Assembly (NCBI RefSeq): GCF_002067135.1
Contig: NZ_CP020105.1
Location: 2,356,001-2,420,000 of the forward strand
Length of the DNA: 64,000 nucleotides
Direction of reading: 5' to 3'
DNA from: Spirosoma rigui
GTDB taxonomy: Bacteria; Bacteroidota; Bacteroidia; Cytophagales; Spirosomataceae
The notes under the pieces: model-generated
The model's input: the letters and a program-made list of their open reading frames with translations, nothing else
The model's database searches: none
What the model was told of the DNA's origin: nothing
Part shown: one piece after another, positions 2,602-49,618 of the stretch
Layout: each line of letters starts with the position of its first letter
Numbering within the stretch: position 1 is the first letter of the stretch
Made by a program: the position numbers and the translations under genes

Positions 2602-2609
2602 CAAAGGTA
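2602..2609 (-). promoter_or_regulatory. Bacteroidota -7 box (TACCTTTG)
   Basis: The minus strand reads TACCTTTG, an exact match to TAnnTTTG, about 110 nt upstream of the start at 2493. No convincing -33 TTG element is seen at the expected distance. Confidence 0.4.
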
Positions 2610-2632
2610 GGTGGTCAGCGCTGTTATGAAAA

Positions 2633-2661
2633 ATGCCGAACCTGATAGTCAGGTTCGGCAT
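2633..2661 (-). terminator. Hairpin terminator closing the RecE-like operon
   Basis: Perfect 13-bp stem ATGCCGAACCTGA / TCAGGTTCGGCAT with a 3-nt loop; on the minus strand it runs into ATTTTTC. It lies 24 nt beyond the stop of the gene at 2685. The plus strand also has CGTTTT, so it may work both ways. Confidence 0.8.
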
Positions 2662-2684
2662 CGTTTTCAATTAAAAAAATAGAC

Positions 2685-3032
2685 CTAATCCAGCCACATG
2701 ACTTTATCATAGGCCACCTCGTAATCCATTTCCTGGAGGGGCAGCAAGCCCGCGAAGTGACCGGTCTGGTCGGTCTGGACGGCGTTCCAGAGGCCCGATG
2801 CGTCGCGCAGGAGCAGCCGGTAGCCATAGAGCGGATGGAGCGTATCACTGTCGGTACGGTGATCCCAGCCGGTTTGTAATTCTATGGCAAACGCAATCCG
2901 GTCCATGACCTCATCCATCTGGCTGGCCAGGCTCCCGGCTCCGTCGAGTTCTTCGATCCACAGGACCAGCCCGTCGGTTCCCCAATCGAAGTGAAGCTGG
3001 TCGGGCGTTAAGGTGATAATAGAAGCGTTCAT
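2685..3032 (-). CDS. Conserved-looking hypothetical protein, last gene of the RecE-like operon
   Basis: A 115-residue acidic soluble protein without signal peptide or membrane segment; I do not recognise a family. It has an aromatic-rich first half (TPDQLHFDWGTDGLVLWIEE) and ends in a WLD motif. It starts 31 nt after the nuclease gene on the same strand and is followed directly by a perfect hairpin terminator, so it is probably the third gene of one transcript with the two genes upstream. The position suggests an accessory role to the nuclease, but nothing in the sequence proves it. Confidence 0.7.
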   Translation of the reverse strand: MNASIITLTPDQLHFDWGTDGLVLWIEELDGAGSLASQMDEVMDRIAFAIELQTGWDHRTDSDTLHPLYGYRLLLRDASGLWNAVQTDQTGHFAGLLPLQEMDYEVAYDKVMWLD

Positions 3033-3063
3033 TGGAGATAGTTTAGGGTAACAATGGGCCGTG

Positions 3064-3855
3064 TCAGGCAGTCATCGGCCAGATGGCCGGTGCCTGGGTC
3101 GTACCGACGCCCATCGACTGTTCTTCGCGCCACTTGCGCAGCCAGAAACGATATTTTTTACGTCCATACTCGATGAAGTTCGGAATCGACGTAGCATCGA
3201 CGGCGAACAGCCGGTGCGGACGCTGTTTCATCACGCCAATGAAGACGAACCGGAACTGCCGGGTCATGGCCCACTCGTGCCCGTCGGCATTGCGCAGGCT
3301 GTCGATGTAAAATGCCGCCTGGCGGTCGTAATCATACGTATAGCACGACTCCAGAAACTGAGCCTGCGTCCGGGCCGACGTTGTCTTTACATCGATAATG
3401 AGCGCATTACGCCGTTTGGGACTCGTGTAGACCATATCCAGCCGGGCTTTGCAGGCAATACCCGTCGTTGGGTCGGTAGAGAGCACCACCCGCTCCCGCT
3501 CCGACTGCCGGAGGTAACGCCGGCAAAACGTGTCCTGCCGGATTATCTTCATCAATTCGTTCAGCTTGTCCATCTGCTCCGGGGCCATGGTGTCGGCGCC
3601 GGGTGTCAAATCGGGCAGCAGTTGCTGGAGCACCGTACCGATCGTTTCGGGTTCGAGCAGGTGCTGGTGAAAAGTCCGGCCGAATACTTTGGCTTTGTCG
3701 AGGTTGAACCGTGCCGGACCGCTGCCCATGCCGTAGCCCAGGTGCTCTTCCTTGAGCCGGGTTAGGTCCGAGTTAGAGACGCGCGGTAGAGAGCGGTACT
3801 CGTCGGACGAACTGATGAGAGACGGATAAACGGGGGTCGAAAGGGGGAGTAACAT
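3064..3855 (-). CDS. RecE-like PD-(D/E)XK nuclease
   Basis: A 263-residue cytoplasmic protein resembling the nuclease domain of exodeoxyribonuclease VIII/RecE (DUF3799 type), which degrades the 5' strand of double-stranded DNA during phage-type recombination. The N-terminus has SNSDLTRLKEEH followed by FGRTFHQHLLEPE, the conserved helix with the active-site histidine. The catalytic core is visible as RLDMVY then IIDVKTT (D...DxK) and the RecE-typical YDYDRQAAFYID. All key residues are present, so the enzyme should be active. ATG at 3855 is chosen; a GTG three codons upstream is possible. It sits 86 nt after an unknown gene and 31 nt before another, with no RecT-type annealing protein recognisable, which is unusual for a phage recombination pair. 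Confidence 0.8.
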   Translation of the reverse strand: MLLPLSTPVYPSLISSSDEYRSLPRVSNSDLTRLKEEHLGYGMGSGPARFNLDKAKVFGRTFHQHLLEPETIGTVLQQLLPDLTPGADTMAPEQMDKLNELMKIIRQDTFCRRYLRQSERERVVLSTDPTTGIACKARLDMVYTSPKRRNALIIDVKTTSARTQAQFLESCYTYDYDRQAAFYIDSLRNADGHEWAMTRQFRFVFIGVMKQRPHRLFAVDATSIPNFIEYGRKKYRFWLRKWREEQSMGVGTTQAPAIWPMTA

Positions 3856-3941
3856 ACAGCGCACGTTTGGGATGAATACAGTTACCTGCGGGCATTCGCT
3901 GGGAATGCCCGTATAACAAGGTGGAACCTAACCCGCCTGCC

Positions 3942-4595
3942 TTAACCCGCCGGCAGCAGCGCTGCTTCTTCGGCAACGTTGGCAAACGGATTGTAGTAGT
4001 TCATCGCAGTTTTGATGTTGGCGATGTCGGTGAGGGTTTCCTGGCGGAAGATTTTGGCTTCCTGAGCAAACTGCTTCAGTTCGTCGGTCTGTTTTACATC
4101 GGCCATCTTGTAGGTGAAGTTGGCAATGTAATAGACTCCTTTCGGGTGAACCTTCGTATTCTCTTTCTTCTCGGCAATGGCCGTGATCACTACGTCGGCC
4201 AGCGTCAGGTCGTCGTAGTAGAGGGGCTCAATGAGCCGGAATATATTATCGACCGAATAGCCGTGGAACAGTACCGCTGACACGCAGTTTTTTTCGTCGA
4301 TGAAAAAAATCTCCGCCCAGTTCTTGGTCCCCATGTTCAGGATGTTATCCGTGAAGATGCGCCAGGCAATGGGTTGAAAGGTCAGGGTGCGGCCCAGTTT
4401 GTCGGCCCCATTGATGTTGAATACGCCTTCTTTGGCGTCGAAACGGTACTGGCGGGGGTGGCCTTCCAGGTATTTAAACCGCCGGGCAATACCACTTCCG
4501 GCTACCGCGGCCGCTACCGGCTGGACGTTTTGATACGACTCCGGGGCGTTTTCGCTTTGAATTGTCTCGATTTGGCCGTTGTTTTGCGTGTTCAT
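3942..4595 (-). CDS. Unknown protein, first gene of the RecE-like operon
   Basis: A 217-residue soluble protein starting at ATG 4595 (a TTG start eight codons earlier is less likely). The first 40 residues are polar and low in complexity (NTQNNGQIETIQSENAPES), then a folded domain follows with aromatic-rich motifs such as RRFKYLEGHPRQYRFDA, WRIFTDNIL and NWAEIFFIDEKNCVS. I do not recognise the family. Its place ahead of a RecE-like nuclease would fit a single-strand annealing or DNA-binding partner, but the sequence does not look like RecT or Erf to me, so that is only a hypothesis. It is transcribed away from an XRE regulator across a palindrome at 4730-4759. Confidence 0.7.
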   Translation of the reverse strand: MNTQNNGQIETIQSENAPESYQNVQPVAAAVAGSGIARRFKYLEGHPRQYRFDAKEGVFNINGADKLGRTLTFQPIAWRIFTDNILNMGTKNWAEIFFIDEKNCVSAVLFHGYSVDNIFRLIEPLYYDDLTLADVVITAIAEKKENTKVHPKGVYYIANFTYKMADVKQTDELKQFAQEAKIFRQETLTDIANIKTAMNYYNPFANVAEEAALLPAG

Positions 4596-4729
4596 TAGTA
4601 TTTGTTGTTTACTGTTCAAGCAGGGGACCCGTTTTGCGGTCCCTTTTGCCTTTTATAGGGGTGCTGTTTACTGATTTAAAATTACATAGTTTCGCGTAAA
4701 AATCAAACCCGTTTCGGCGATTTATCCCG

Positions 4730-4759
4730 CTTATTTTACAGTTTTGTGTGTAAAATAAG
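4730..4759. promoter_or_regulatory. Perfect palindrome, probable XRE repressor operator
   Basis: CTTATTTTACA at 4730-4740 and TGTAAAATAAG at 4749-4759 form a perfect 11-bp inverted repeat with an 8-nt spacer, in the region between the XRE regulator gene and the oppositely directed nuclease operon. The shape is that of a dimeric repressor site. Confidence 0.6.
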
Positions 4760-4851
4760 GGTGCCCGCCCAATGCGTTGTCTACGGGCATAAAAACGCCC
4801 CTGTATCCGGGTTGAGACACCCTTTCTGACCCACCTTGCCGCCCTTTTGCC

Positions 4852-5229
4852 ATGATTGAAACCCGTCTCCAGCAGTTGATTGATGCCCTTAATGTCAGTG
4901 TTCTAGAATTTGCCCGCCAGCTGGGCGAACGGCGGGGCGAAAAAGTGTACCACATCCTTCACGGTCGGCTCAAGCCCCGCTACGATACGCTCGAGAAGAT
5001 TCTGGCAGCCTACCCACAGGTCAACGGCGACTGGCTGTTGCGGGGTGAGGGACTCATGTTTAGGCAACTCAATTCCCCGTCGGCAGCCATCACCACGGAA
5101 GAGCGACTGCGAAATATGGAGTTCCTTCTTTTTCAGCTCAACGAACGGATGGCTCTGTTGCAAGCCACCAACGACCAGCTTCGGGCCGACGTAGCGCTGC
5201 TTGGCCATAACAAGCAATATGATTTATAG
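4852..5229 (+). CDS. XRE-family helix-turn-helix regulator (phage-repressor-like)
   Basis: A 125-residue protein. The N-terminal 65 residues form an XRE-type DNA-binding domain: LQQLIDALNVSVLEFARQLG, then KVYHILHGRLKPRYDTLEKILAAYP, ending in the VNGDWLLRGEG motif common in Bacteroidota phage-type regulators. The C-terminal part (about residues 85-120) is leucine-rich and heptad-like (MEFLLFQLNERMALLQATN), probably a coiled coil for dimerisation. It lies divergent to the RecE-like operon with a perfect palindrome between them, which suggests it represses that operon and itself. No peptidase domain is present, so SOS-type self-cleavage is unlikely; the inducer is unknown. Confidence 0.85.
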   Translation: MIETRLQQLIDALNVSVLEFARQLGERRGEKVYHILHGRLKPRYDTLEKILAAYPQVNGDWLLRGEGLMFRQLNSPSAAITTEERLRNMEFLLFQLNERMALLQATNDQLRADVALLGHNKQYDL

Positions 5230-8400: not shown

Positions 8401-8619
8401 ACAATTCCTAAAACGGTACTGTCCCGCCTGGGACTCGGCAGCTGCCAGGTATACGTACAGGGACAGAACCTGCTGACGATTACCAAGTATACCGGGCTGA
8501 ACCCGGAGATCAGTATCTCGAACAACTCCAGCTCGGACCGCAACCGGAACCTTGGCTTCGACGGCGGCTACCTGCCTGTGTCACGCTCCCTGCTGGTTGG
8601 TCTGAACCTGGCATTCTAA
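5416..8619 (+). CDS. SusC/RagA-type TonB-dependent outer-membrane transporter (pair 1)
   Basis: A 1067-residue outer-membrane protein that, with its SusD partner, imports oligosaccharides or other large nutrients using TonB energy. The order is: Sec signal peptide (residues 1-26, LLIGPLVFGQ), a carboxypeptidase-D-regulatory-like domain (about 32-112; PIPGANVSVKGTTRGV), the LNEVVVTGY segment, a plug domain (about 125-235; GRVAGVTV, IRIRGFGTIGNNDPLYIIDG-type motif, YGSRAANGVIIITTKKGK) and a 22-strand barrel ending in phenylalanine, as outer-membrane barrels do. The susD gene follows 30 nt later. No ECF sigma or anti-sigma gene lies nearby, so control is likely by another route. The substrate cannot be read from the sequence. 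Confidence 0.95.
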   Translation: MRNIFCSTARLWLLMSLLLIGPLVFGQGTARTGKVTGQGEGSPIPGANVSVKGTTRGVTTNANGEYSIQADNGAVLVFSFIGYKAQEITVGNQTSINVTLAEDVSTLNEVVVTGYSAQSRRDITGAVATVNTKELLSIPATDVSQQLQGRVAGVTVTSDATPGGSATVRIRGFGTIGNNDPLYIIDGVPTQNLGTINPNDIETFQVLKDASASSIYGSRAANGVIIITTKKGKAGVSQITVNSYYGSQQWAQKGEVLNSEELGRYLYLADLGAGKTPSHGQYTYGANGQVTIPDYVFPSAGKEGTPGVNPSLYSLTPSNIYPITKSANTNWFDEVSQSAPIQNYQIGATGGSETGRYALTVNYFNQQGTVKYIGFDRYSIRANTEFNVKKRIRIGENLTVAYSSRKGGFNNNEEQNAVSGAYKHHPLLPVYDIAGNFAGSRGLNLGNNENPVATLYRQRDNRYNSLRVFGNAYAEVDLPAGFSARSSIGIDANGDRAKYLRRANPEYIEGNFNLELTDQNRYNYQWVWTNTLSYTKTLNTVHKFDAFVGTEAIRQYQEFFGAFRSGFFNDQLSIQSYLDLGNRSSSSNEGRIEQDYSLFSLFGKVNYAYGDKYLIQGILRQDKSSRFLSASNSALFPAVSAGWRISEESFFKNNVSFINDLKLRAGFGITGNQAIGDYNSYTTYRSDTFHNGYPIDGSTSTATIGFSPQRFGNPNAKWESTASTNLGLDLSLLASKLEINFDVWSRKTTDMLFTTPFTFTAGDADIPSYNVGSMQNRGIDLAISYRNQAGALRYSITGNVATYRNKVLKLDESENTRYFGYSSRVPGGGVTLTQAGLPISSFFGYKVLGIFQSDEEAKAWPQFGTSAYNKAGKFKFADVNGDGVITDADRTVIGNPHPDFTYGLNINLGYKAFDLTVFGSGSQGNDIFNYTRYFTDFNTFQGNRSRRALYEAWSPTNKGGTSPIPDANDQTSSLPSTYFIENGSYFRLKNVQLGYTIPKTVLSRLGLGSCQVYVQGQNLLTITKYTGLNPEISISNNSSSDRNRNLGFDGGYLPVSRSLLVGLNLAF

Positions 8620-8649
8620 ATAAACTCATTAAAACAACTCGCATAGATT

Positions 8650-10443
8650 ATGCAACTGTTTCATAAAAAAATCGCGGTGTCGGCGCTAGCCCTTAGTGGC
8701 CTGCTGATGCTGGATGCGTGCAGCAACGACTTCCTGACCCGGCCCCCGCAGGGGCAGTATAGCCCCAATTCGCTGGCGAACGGCCAGGGTATCGAGGGCA
8801 TACTGATCGGGGCCTACGGTATGCTCGACGGGCAGGGGATCGACGGTCAGAATGCTTGGGAGAATGAAGTGCAGAACTGGGTGTTTGGCGGAATCACCTC
8901 CGACGACGCCTACAAAGGCACCGACTCGGGCGACCAGCCGGAACAGTCGTTCCTGGAACGGTATGATTTCCAGCCTACCAATGGCCACATCCGCAACAAG
9001 TGGCGTGGCTTGTATGAGGGGGTAGCCCGCACCAACAACGTGCTCGATAACCTGGCTAGTGCCAAGGATATATCCGACACGCGCCGGAAGCAGATTGAGG
9101 CCGAAGCCCGGTTCCTGCGGGGGTACTACCATTTTGAAGCCCGCAAGATTTTCCGCTACGTACCCTATATCGACGAGAAAATCTACGACGTAGCTGATCC
9201 AAACTCGACTAAAATTCCGAACGACAAAGAGATCTGGCCCAATATCGAAGCCGATTTTCAGGCGGCAGCCGCTGGCCTCCCCGAGACGCAGGCCCAACCG
9301 GGTCGCCCAACGAAATGGGCTGCACTGGCACACCTGGGTAAAACGTACATGTTCCAGGGGTTTGACATCGCAACCGGTGCGCCCAACGCGGCCAAATTAC
9401 AAGCCGCCAAAGCCGTATTTGACCAGATTGTCAACAGCGGTAAGTTTACCCTGATGAGCAACTTCTCGCAGAATTTTGATTCGGATACGCGAAACAATGC
9501 CGAGTCGATCTTCGAGGTGCAATATGCCAAGTCGGCTTCTGATGACGGTGCGGCAACGGCGGGTATGGGTCTGGCTCACCCTTACGCATCGCCCTGGGGA
9601 TGCTGCGGCTTTTACCAGCCGTCGCAAAACTTGGTTAACGCCTATAAGACCGATGCTACGGGTCTGCCGCTGCTTGATACGTTCAACGATAGCGACGTGA
9701 AAAATGACCAGGGCGTTGCGCTGGATGCGCCGTTCACGCCGTATACCGGACCGCTGGACCCTCGTCTGGACTGGACGGTTGGTCGCCGGGGAATCCTCTA
9801 CAAGGATTTCAAAATCCACAACAGCGACTTTATCCGGGATCAGACCTACGCCGGGCCATACTCGCCCAAGAAGCACGTTGCTTCCAAGAAAAATACGCTT
9901 TTGGGCGTTGGCTGGCAGAACCTGACGGCCAACAACTACCGACTGATCCGCTACGCCCACGTACTGCTGTGGCTGGCCGAAGCCGAGATAGAAGTAGGAA
10001 GCCTGAGCCGGGCCCGTGAACTGGTTAACCTGGTTCGGAAGCGGGCCGCTAATCCAGCCGACTTCGTTCGGAAGGCGCTTCCCGGCGATACCCGCGATGC
10101 GTATACGGAACTGGCTGAACCAGCGGCCAACTACGTCATTGCTGAATACGGAGCTGCTTCGCCCGTTTTTGCTACCAAAGAGTCGGCCCGGAAGGCGGTT
10201 CGGTTTGAAACCCGTCTGGAGTTTGCGATGGAAGGGCACCGCTTCTTCGATCTGGTTCGCTGGGGTATTGCCGACCAGACGCTCAATGCCTACCTAACCA
10301 AAGAGGGCGAAAAACGTACGTATCTGAAAGCCGGCCGCTTCACGAAAGGAAAGAACGAATATTTCCCGGTGCCCCAGCAGGCCATTGATAACGCCTTTAA
10401 AAACGGCGCCCCAACGCTGATTCAGAATCCGGCTTATAAGTAG
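8650..10443 (+). CDS. SusD/RagB-type surface lipoprotein (pair 1)
   Basis: A 597-residue nutrient-binding lipoprotein that caps the SusC barrel. A lipoprotein signal is clear (LSGLLMLDAC, cysteine near residue 24, followed by SND). The N-terminal tetratricopeptide-like helices (EAEARFLRGYYHFEARKIF) and the C-terminal RFETRLEFAMEGHRFFDLVRWG motif are standard for the family. A CCGFYQPSQNLVNA segment near the middle is shared almost exactly with the second SusD at 14142, showing that the two pairs are paralogues. The gene is co-transcribed with the upstream susC gene and ends in a strong intrinsic terminator. Confidence 0.95.
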   Translation: MQLFHKKIAVSALALSGLLMLDACSNDFLTRPPQGQYSPNSLANGQGIEGILIGAYGMLDGQGIDGQNAWENEVQNWVFGGITSDDAYKGTDSGDQPEQSFLERYDFQPTNGHIRNKWRGLYEGVARTNNVLDNLASAKDISDTRRKQIEAEARFLRGYYHFEARKIFRYVPYIDEKIYDVADPNSTKIPNDKEIWPNIEADFQAAAAGLPETQAQPGRPTKWAALAHLGKTYMFQGFDIATGAPNAAKLQAAKAVFDQIVNSGKFTLMSNFSQNFDSDTRNNAESIFEVQYAKSASDDGAATAGMGLAHPYASPWGCCGFYQPSQNLVNAYKTDATGLPLLDTFNDSDVKNDQGVALDAPFTPYTGPLDPRLDWTVGRRGILYKDFKIHNSDFIRDQTYAGPYSPKKHVASKKNTLLGVGWQNLTANNYRLIRYAHVLLWLAEAEIEVGSLSRARELVNLVRKRAANPADFVRKALPGDTRDAYTELAEPAANYVIAEYGAASPVFATKESARKAVRFETRLEFAMEGHRFFDLVRWGIADQTLNAYLTKEGEKRTYLKAGRFTKGKNEYFPVPQQAIDNAFKNGAPTLIQNPAYK

Positions 10444-23620: not shown

Positions 23621-23682
23621 GTCATTTAAACGCCATCGGCCAGCCGTTACTGATTACGGCTGGCCGATGGCGTTTAAATGAC
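23621..23682. terminator. Bidirectional terminator with a 27-bp perfect stem
   Basis: Arms 23621-23647 and 23656-23682 are perfect reverse complements (GTCATTTAAACGCCATCGGC...) with an 8-nt loop. It lies between convergent genes and overlaps the last codon and stop of the glycosyltransferase gene. Confidence 0.85.
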
Positions 23683-49567: not shown

Positions 49568-49618
49568 AGCTCCCCGCCCAACTGCCGTGATGAGTACGGC
49601 AGTTGGGCGGGGAGTTTT
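49568..49618. terminator. Strong bidirectional terminator
   Basis: Perfect 19-bp stem (CTCCCCGCCCAACTGCCGT / ACGGCAGTTGGGCGGGGAG) with a 7-nt loop, followed by TTTT on the plus strand. It lies between the convergent transferase and acyltransferase genes. Confidence 0.85.

Follow-up and report, generated by a model that had tools for sequence, protein, structure and literature searches.

What is a phage-flavoured nuclease operon, facing a repressor-like gene, doing on the chromosome of Spirosoma rigui? We addressed this question in a window of 64,000 nucleotides (contig NZ_CP020105.1, positions 2,356,001 to 2,420,000; coordinates below are those within this stretch). Three minus-strand genes, encoding a protein of 217 residues (p217; 3942 to 4595), a nuclease of 266 residues (3064 to 3864, from a GTG start codon that is uncertain), and a protein of 115 residues (p115; 2685 to 3032), form an operon, and a plus-strand gene for an XRE-type regulator of 125 residues (4852 to 5229) diverges from it. 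These coordinates bear out the layout given in a preliminary description of this DNA. We consider it probable that the four genes represent a phage- or plasmid-type end-resection module that is now domesticated, that is, a vertically inherited, self-repressed host recombination function. Among the options raised in that description, a domesticated recombination system is indeed the likeliest, in view of the core recurrence of the module in Spirosomataceae and of the flanks that its loci have in common. The activity of the module and its role in host recombination are what we infer from the evidence below.

The nuclease matched the Pfam families PF12684 (DUF3799; E = 2.9e-15, 57.1 bits versus a cut-off of 26) and PF12705 (PDDEXK_1; E = 8.8e-7, 29.5 bits versus a cut-off of 22), as well as the PHROG family phrog_412, exonuclease VIII (E = 1.7e-30). 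Compared with solved structures, it aligned with exodeoxyribonuclease 8 (PDB 3h4r; E = 0.0022), D143, D158, and K160 falling on the D, D, and K of that enzyme. The same three columns, together with Q182 and Y186, were invariant in all 18 aligned rows, and H66 was found in at least 90%; we take D...DxK and QxxxY to be the catalytic motifs of a RecE/exonuclease VIII-type nuclease. With a family profile above cut-off and the catalytic motifs present, the protein is, by sequence, a member of the RecE/exonuclease VIII family (DUF3799, PD-(D/E)XK), in good agreement with the RecE-like nuclease with an intact D...DxK core noticed earlier. Its family membership suggests that it would act as an exonuclease on duplex DNA ends.

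For p217 and p115, nothing rose above noise in Pfam, PHROGs, NCBIfam, or PADLOC. Neither protein matched a RecT, Red-beta, Erf, or Sak family in Pfam or PHROG, so that the proposed check against RecT, Erf, and Sak folds came out negative at the level of profiles, and none of 57 p217 members matched the Gp2.5 family PF10991 at E<=1. The structure model of p217 had gp32 (T4/RB69) and bacterial SSB among its best structural neighbours, but the identity was 7% over 122 aligned residues, the Z score was modest, and there was no sequence match. A match of the model to the phiC31 gp3 recombination directionality factor was tied with that to gp32 (difference below 1); unlike the setting expected for gp3, no integrase was found at the window locus. 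On these modest structural scores, p217 is predicted to be an OB-fold, gp32-like single-stranded DNA (ssDNA)-binding protein, and ssDNA binding would be its likely activity. A search of 5.8 billion proteins, which finds only relatives having short exact words in common, returned 91 relatives of p115 (52 to 94% identical), those with names being hypothetical proteins of Spirosoma, Fibrisoma, Nibrella, Rudanella, Larkinella, Fibrella, and Tellurirhabdus. For p217, an identical search starting from residues 38 to 205 gave 488 relatives, and the named ones among the 120 listed were likewise hypothetical. Both proteins represent, as far as sequence comparison goes, families named only as hypothetical in the sources covered here, which supports the earlier suggestion that the partner of the nuclease may be new.

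Failure of the gene set to recur in other genomes had been named earlier as a ground for refutation, but recurrence across Spirosomataceae was clear: when the 30 best loci were searched by tblastn with the four proteins, each of them (30 of 30) contained all four genes, in one order. In this group of bacteria from soil and water, the set reaches beyond Spirosoma to Larkinella, Rudanella, Fibrisoma, and Tellurirhabdus (L062, genus inferred), and Fibrella loci carry it without an adjacent XRE gene. Within the family, a p217 relative was present in 86 of 222 genomes, non-core copies included, and in all 36 Spirosoma genomes, often with extra copies; p115 was present in 57 of the 222, covering all 36 Spirosoma genomes and six of 36 genera. 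In the order, p115 was found in 27 of 390 sampled genomes, all from the same six genera, and across the phylum the p217 profile hit 4 of 395 sampled genomes. The module had been called free-standing, which holds in that no prophage surrounds it, but it is not a local oddity, being core in its clade.

Individual loci were named from one scan of genome contigs in which 80 of 122 relatives were kept, and a core locus was defined by a nuclease more than 50% identical together with a full p217 (n = 36). p115 was present in 34 of these 36 (exceptions, L095 and L105). The XRE gene lay next to the operon and diverged from it both in the window and in 31 of the 36, L126 being left out of this count as a contig end cuts the locus; none stood beside p217 in L089, L091, L093, L094, and L098, and in L089 and L091 a 48%-identical XRE match lay farther along. 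In L007 and L077 (Spirosoma telluris), the XRE match, by tblastn in L007, is divided between two frames, which may mean a broken regulator beside an operon that is kept. One core module (L096) comes from a record named Flavobacterium sp. SUN052; its p217 groups with Rudanella (99/97 support), which may point to an error in the naming or in the assembly.

All four genes are, by codon comparison, under purifying selection: Nei-Gojobori ratios of nonsynonymous to synonymous change (dN/dS) were 0.008 to 0.097 in 27 of 27 gene comparisons from seven genome pairs, some ratios being rough because dS exceeded 1. The module also lies mostly at a single chromosomal place. We compared the flanks of 19 core loci, 15 to 20 kb each, from hand-chosen genomes; flanking markers lay somewhere in the stretch in 17, and L062 and L065 had none of the five. 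Upstream, the markers are two GHMP-kinase-type genes (c5 and c6) and a nucleotidyltransferase gene (c8); downstream, they encode a pentapeptide protein (c7) and a DUF748 protein (c4). In the window, a SusC/SusD pair occupies the XRE side, where other loci have the kinase side.

Five window neighbours were scanned, namely, SusC, SusD, a pentapeptide-repeat protein, a protein with a type IX secretion signal (below cut-off), and a DUF748 protein; sugar-kinase-type, nucleotidyltransferase, pentapeptide, and DUF748 genes were also among the neighbours scanned. No phage structural, packaging, or integrase gene and no RecT was found among the five window neighbours, as the preliminary description had it, nor any phage gene among five neighbours at L057, and we rejected a prophage identity on these 10 neighbours. 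Nor was a known defence family or a defence-island setting found: PADLOC matched none of the four module proteins, and the neighbours scanned are ordinary.

Relatives of the p217-nuclease pair do occur in prophages and plasmids, and they bear on the origin of the module without making the window locus a prophage. We labelled as non-core, or mobile, any locus where no nuclease more than 50% identical was present, and the label stands for no more than that. In 57 such loci (56 distinct; contig ends cut some), we recovered the p217 cluster 53 times and a nuclease relative 40 times; the next commonest neighbour cluster, that of a DUF3846 protein, occurred in 22. Prophage L032 carries p217 with a terminase and NinB/Orf, and prophage L038 has large and small terminase subunits, a portal, and a major head protein, together with an XRE gene divergent from p217 and nuclease, plus two small extra frames. 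Conjugation-type genes lie near p217 in L035 (coupling-protein domains and toprim) and L037 (topoisomerase). p217 was also found on 15 plasmid records, always annotated as a hypothetical protein, and in eight viral contigs, and a set of 50,697 phage records yielded no match. Among the four annotated plasmid regions viewed, a PD-(D/E)XK nuclease adjoins p217 in Flammeovirga and lies one gene apart in Emticicia; in those of Spirosoma oryzicola and Haliscomenobacter, no gene annotated as such a nuclease was found near p217. p115 was absent from 20 loci (L032 to L051), from 43 non-core named rows, and from eight viral loci, and appears confined to the core module. A DUF932 protein (L193:6665-7480; L045:10655-11482) stands between p217 and the nuclease at some of the non-core loci and may be a further partner.

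To relate host and other copies, we built a tree of 80 p217 proteins (37 core, including the window, and 43 other; two short rows were dropped, seven viral loci were unused, and the root is arbitrary). Core copies of Larkinella, Rudanella, Fibrella, and Fibrisoma clustered by genus, and Spirosoma formed several small unresolved groups; 20 of the other rows made up one supported clade, and nine Hymenobacter rows another. A few non-core rows stood beside host copies of the same genus, namely, Fibrella L100 and Fibrivirga L108, Arsenicibacter L107, and, less surely, Spirosoma L117. The core/other label required five changes on the tree, three of them forced by well-supported branches, versus about 27 in shuffles. 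These positions point to a probable exchange of p217 between host and other copies. Nuclease identity to that of the window was 54 to 82% for core loci and 28 to 48% for others, those above 41% being short pieces. The best reading of these comparisons is that the host copy with p115 is fixed on the chromosome and inherited mainly vertically.

The XRE-type regulator has an N-terminal helix-turn-helix (HTH_19, E = 0.0026, below the Pfam cut-off; PHROG regulators, E = 2e-5), and no peptidase or protease domain was found in it. Between the divergent genes, the perfect 11+8+11 palindrome described earlier is present at 4730 to 4759 (operator 1; core TTTTAC-N10-GTAAAA at 4734 to 4755). What is conserved is, however, a looser motif: among 31 XRE-p217 intergenic regions (L086, with overlapping frames, left out), the perfect form occurred in one, and L096 carried a 9+8+9 form. 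Alignment of 30 of them, without L077, revealed a common motif in up to three copies. TAC-N10-GTA, a motif picked after the alignment was viewed, occurred 59 times, with at least one copy in 31 of 31 regions, whereas 200 single-base shuffles gave 2.2 (at most 8). For the stricter TTAC-N10-GTAA, the count was 29, spread over 21 loci, versus 0.2. Conversely, all five named loci without an adjacent XRE gene (about two lineages) had no TAC-N10-GTA at the promoter, L094 having one unlike match farther up. This joint retention or loss of XRE and motif is our strongest indication that the motif is bound by the regulator, and the comparison supports TAC-N10-GTA as a putative operator of the adjacent XRE, in line with the repressor control envisaged earlier.

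The motif copy nearest p217 sits between TTTG (4704 to 4707) and TAATTT (4679 to 4684), 19 nucleotides apart on the minus strand, an arrangement (4679 to 4707) that by consensus is presumably a Bacteroidota-type promoter and whose columns are partly conserved in the intergenic alignment. This copy, operator 2 (4682 to 4701; TTTTACGCGAAACTATGTAA on the minus strand), lies within the promoter spacer of the p217 operon and is the only exact copy in the genome. At the other end, the perfect 13-bp hairpin that had been reported to close the operon was found at 2633 to 2661, with a T run on the operon strand, and is likely its intrinsic terminator. The window holds only six perfect dyads with arms of at least 11 and spacers of 3 to 12, two of which flank the operon. 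Large perfect inverted repeats also lie away from the operon, at 23621 to 23682 (27-bp arms) and 49570 to 49614 (19-bp arms).

Conservation extends to the leader of the p217 mRNA. An A-rich stretch of 24 nucleotides (4593 to 4616, minus strand), whose last bases are the p217 ATG, did not vary among the core loci aligned (28 of 28), and an exact copy was found in 34 of 36 Spirosoma genomes; in the other two, which are incomplete, a contig end cuts the p217 piece. This invariance supports the ATG at 4595 as the p217 start. The 30 bases before the p217 start averaged 88% identity among core loci, versus 27 to 29% for the other three genes. The leader was matched at no more than 16 of 24 positions around the 43 p217 genes of non-core loci, and L119, L122, and L123 have a CAGTAAACAAC block in common. 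Upstream of the leader, a predicted hairpin (4618 to 4651, minus strand) had modest support (z, -1.83; 92.4% of cells paired; two pairs with changes on both sides). In gp32, translational autoregulation is served by a structured leader and, after it, an A-rich start region left unpaired; the p217 leader is predicted to be built alike, and the p217 model is a structural neighbour of gp32. By this analogy, one idea is that p217 might regulate its own translation, for the p217 leader copy only.

The window genome has one other leader copy, one base different (G000:C1:1925742-1925765), directly before a pPIWI_RE_Z gene (153 residues; L197:7284-7745, minus strand; PF18155, E = 1.8e-17). Beside that gene lie a paralogue (L197:7882-8310) and a regulator, WYL-type by eye (8490 to 9506). 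Six other Spirosoma genomes (L227 to L232) have one extra leader copy each, with at most two mismatches, ahead of a long frame unrelated to p217 and positioned either at its start codon or 2 bases upstream; the reversed control gave none. Labelled by eye, these frames encode a 270-residue protein (three times) and metalloprotease-like (992 residues), lipoprotein-like (239 residues), and ankyrin-like (212 residues) proteins.

How might such a module work? The RecE-type exonuclease would resect double-stranded DNA ends, and p217 would cover the exposed strand and perhaps anneal it, as T7 gp2.5 anneals strands. p115 may be a clade-specific accessory subunit or regulator. The divergent XRE would repress the promoters via TAC-N10-GTA operators, keeping the level of the module normally low and letting it rise once repression lapses. 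Nuclease and p217 would be the pair used by prophages and plasmids of the same bacteria, with the host copy, including p115, chromosomally fixed.

In RecET (Rac prophage) and lambda Red, an exonuclease gene stands beside the gene of an ssDNA-handling protein in an early operon with a phage-type repressor. Like them, the module pairs a RecE-type exonuclease with a predicted ssDNA-handling protein and a phage-type repressor. Unlike them, it has no adjacent RecT/Red-beta/Erf/Sak-family protein, its partner is a predicted OB-fold protein, and it forms a host core set with an orphan third protein, so it would work like RecET/Red without being a member. A phage module of Gp2.5 (DUF2815), DUF2800 nuclease, and polA combines an annealing protein of the OB fold with a neighbouring PD-(D/E)XK-like nuclease and has no separate ssb gene (PMC8093625). 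Our module is similar in that a predicted OB-fold protein adjoins a PD-(D/E)XK nuclease with no separate ssb gene, but differs in p217 lacking a PF10991 match, in the DUF3799 nuclease, in the absence of a visible adjacent polA, and in being a chromosomal core set. More tentatively, and with somewhat less than even confidence, we suggest a further exonuclease-annealase kind, in which a DUF3799 nuclease and the unnamed gp32-like OB-fold p217 of prophages and plasmids of Cytophagales and kin were made a core host recombination pathway in one clade by an added dedicated subunit, p115, directing or restraining it.

Other explanations deserve weighing against a domesticated host function. The module could be directed against phages or plasmids, infection lifting the repressor and the nuclease and p217 attacking or sequestering invading DNA ends. 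XRE control would suit this, p217-nuclease pairs are carried by the very elements that the module would meet, and the p217 leader sequence also precedes a pPIWI_RE_Z gene, of a family tied to genome conflicts (PMC3702460). Against it stand the blank PADLOC result and the ordinary character of the neighbours scanned, and the module is not patchy, because it is found throughout the genus with flanks in common in most loci compared; the anti-phage option of the preliminary description, with its defence island, thus found no support, and we regard it as unlikely.

It is more doubtful still that the XRE was retained as a superinfection-immunity relic to silence incoming elements with the same operator, the operon being a by-product. 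The operator is nearly unique in the genome, so that the XRE looks dedicated, and the layout of prophage L038 is the same; yet the XRE-p217 region of L038 has no inverted repeat with arms of at least 7, the three operon genes are all under strong purifying selection, and the operon is kept in the five named loci without adjacent XRE or promoter operator. Specialized recombination in DNA uptake, where the module would prepare linear DNA from transformation or conjugation for its integration, could draw on a suitable toolkit in an exonuclease and an ssDNA-binding protein, and the pair in L035 has a gene for a conjugation coupling protein in its vicinity. The scanned neighbours, however, included no gene for competence or conjugation, and we consider this improbable too.

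Phage recombination pairs are normally known from mobile elements, prophages among them. If one such pair is fixed throughout a clade, equipped with an extra subunit and a repressor of its own, it would illustrate how a viral DNA-processing kit turns into host physiology, and it may offer a recombineering pair native to Cytophagales.
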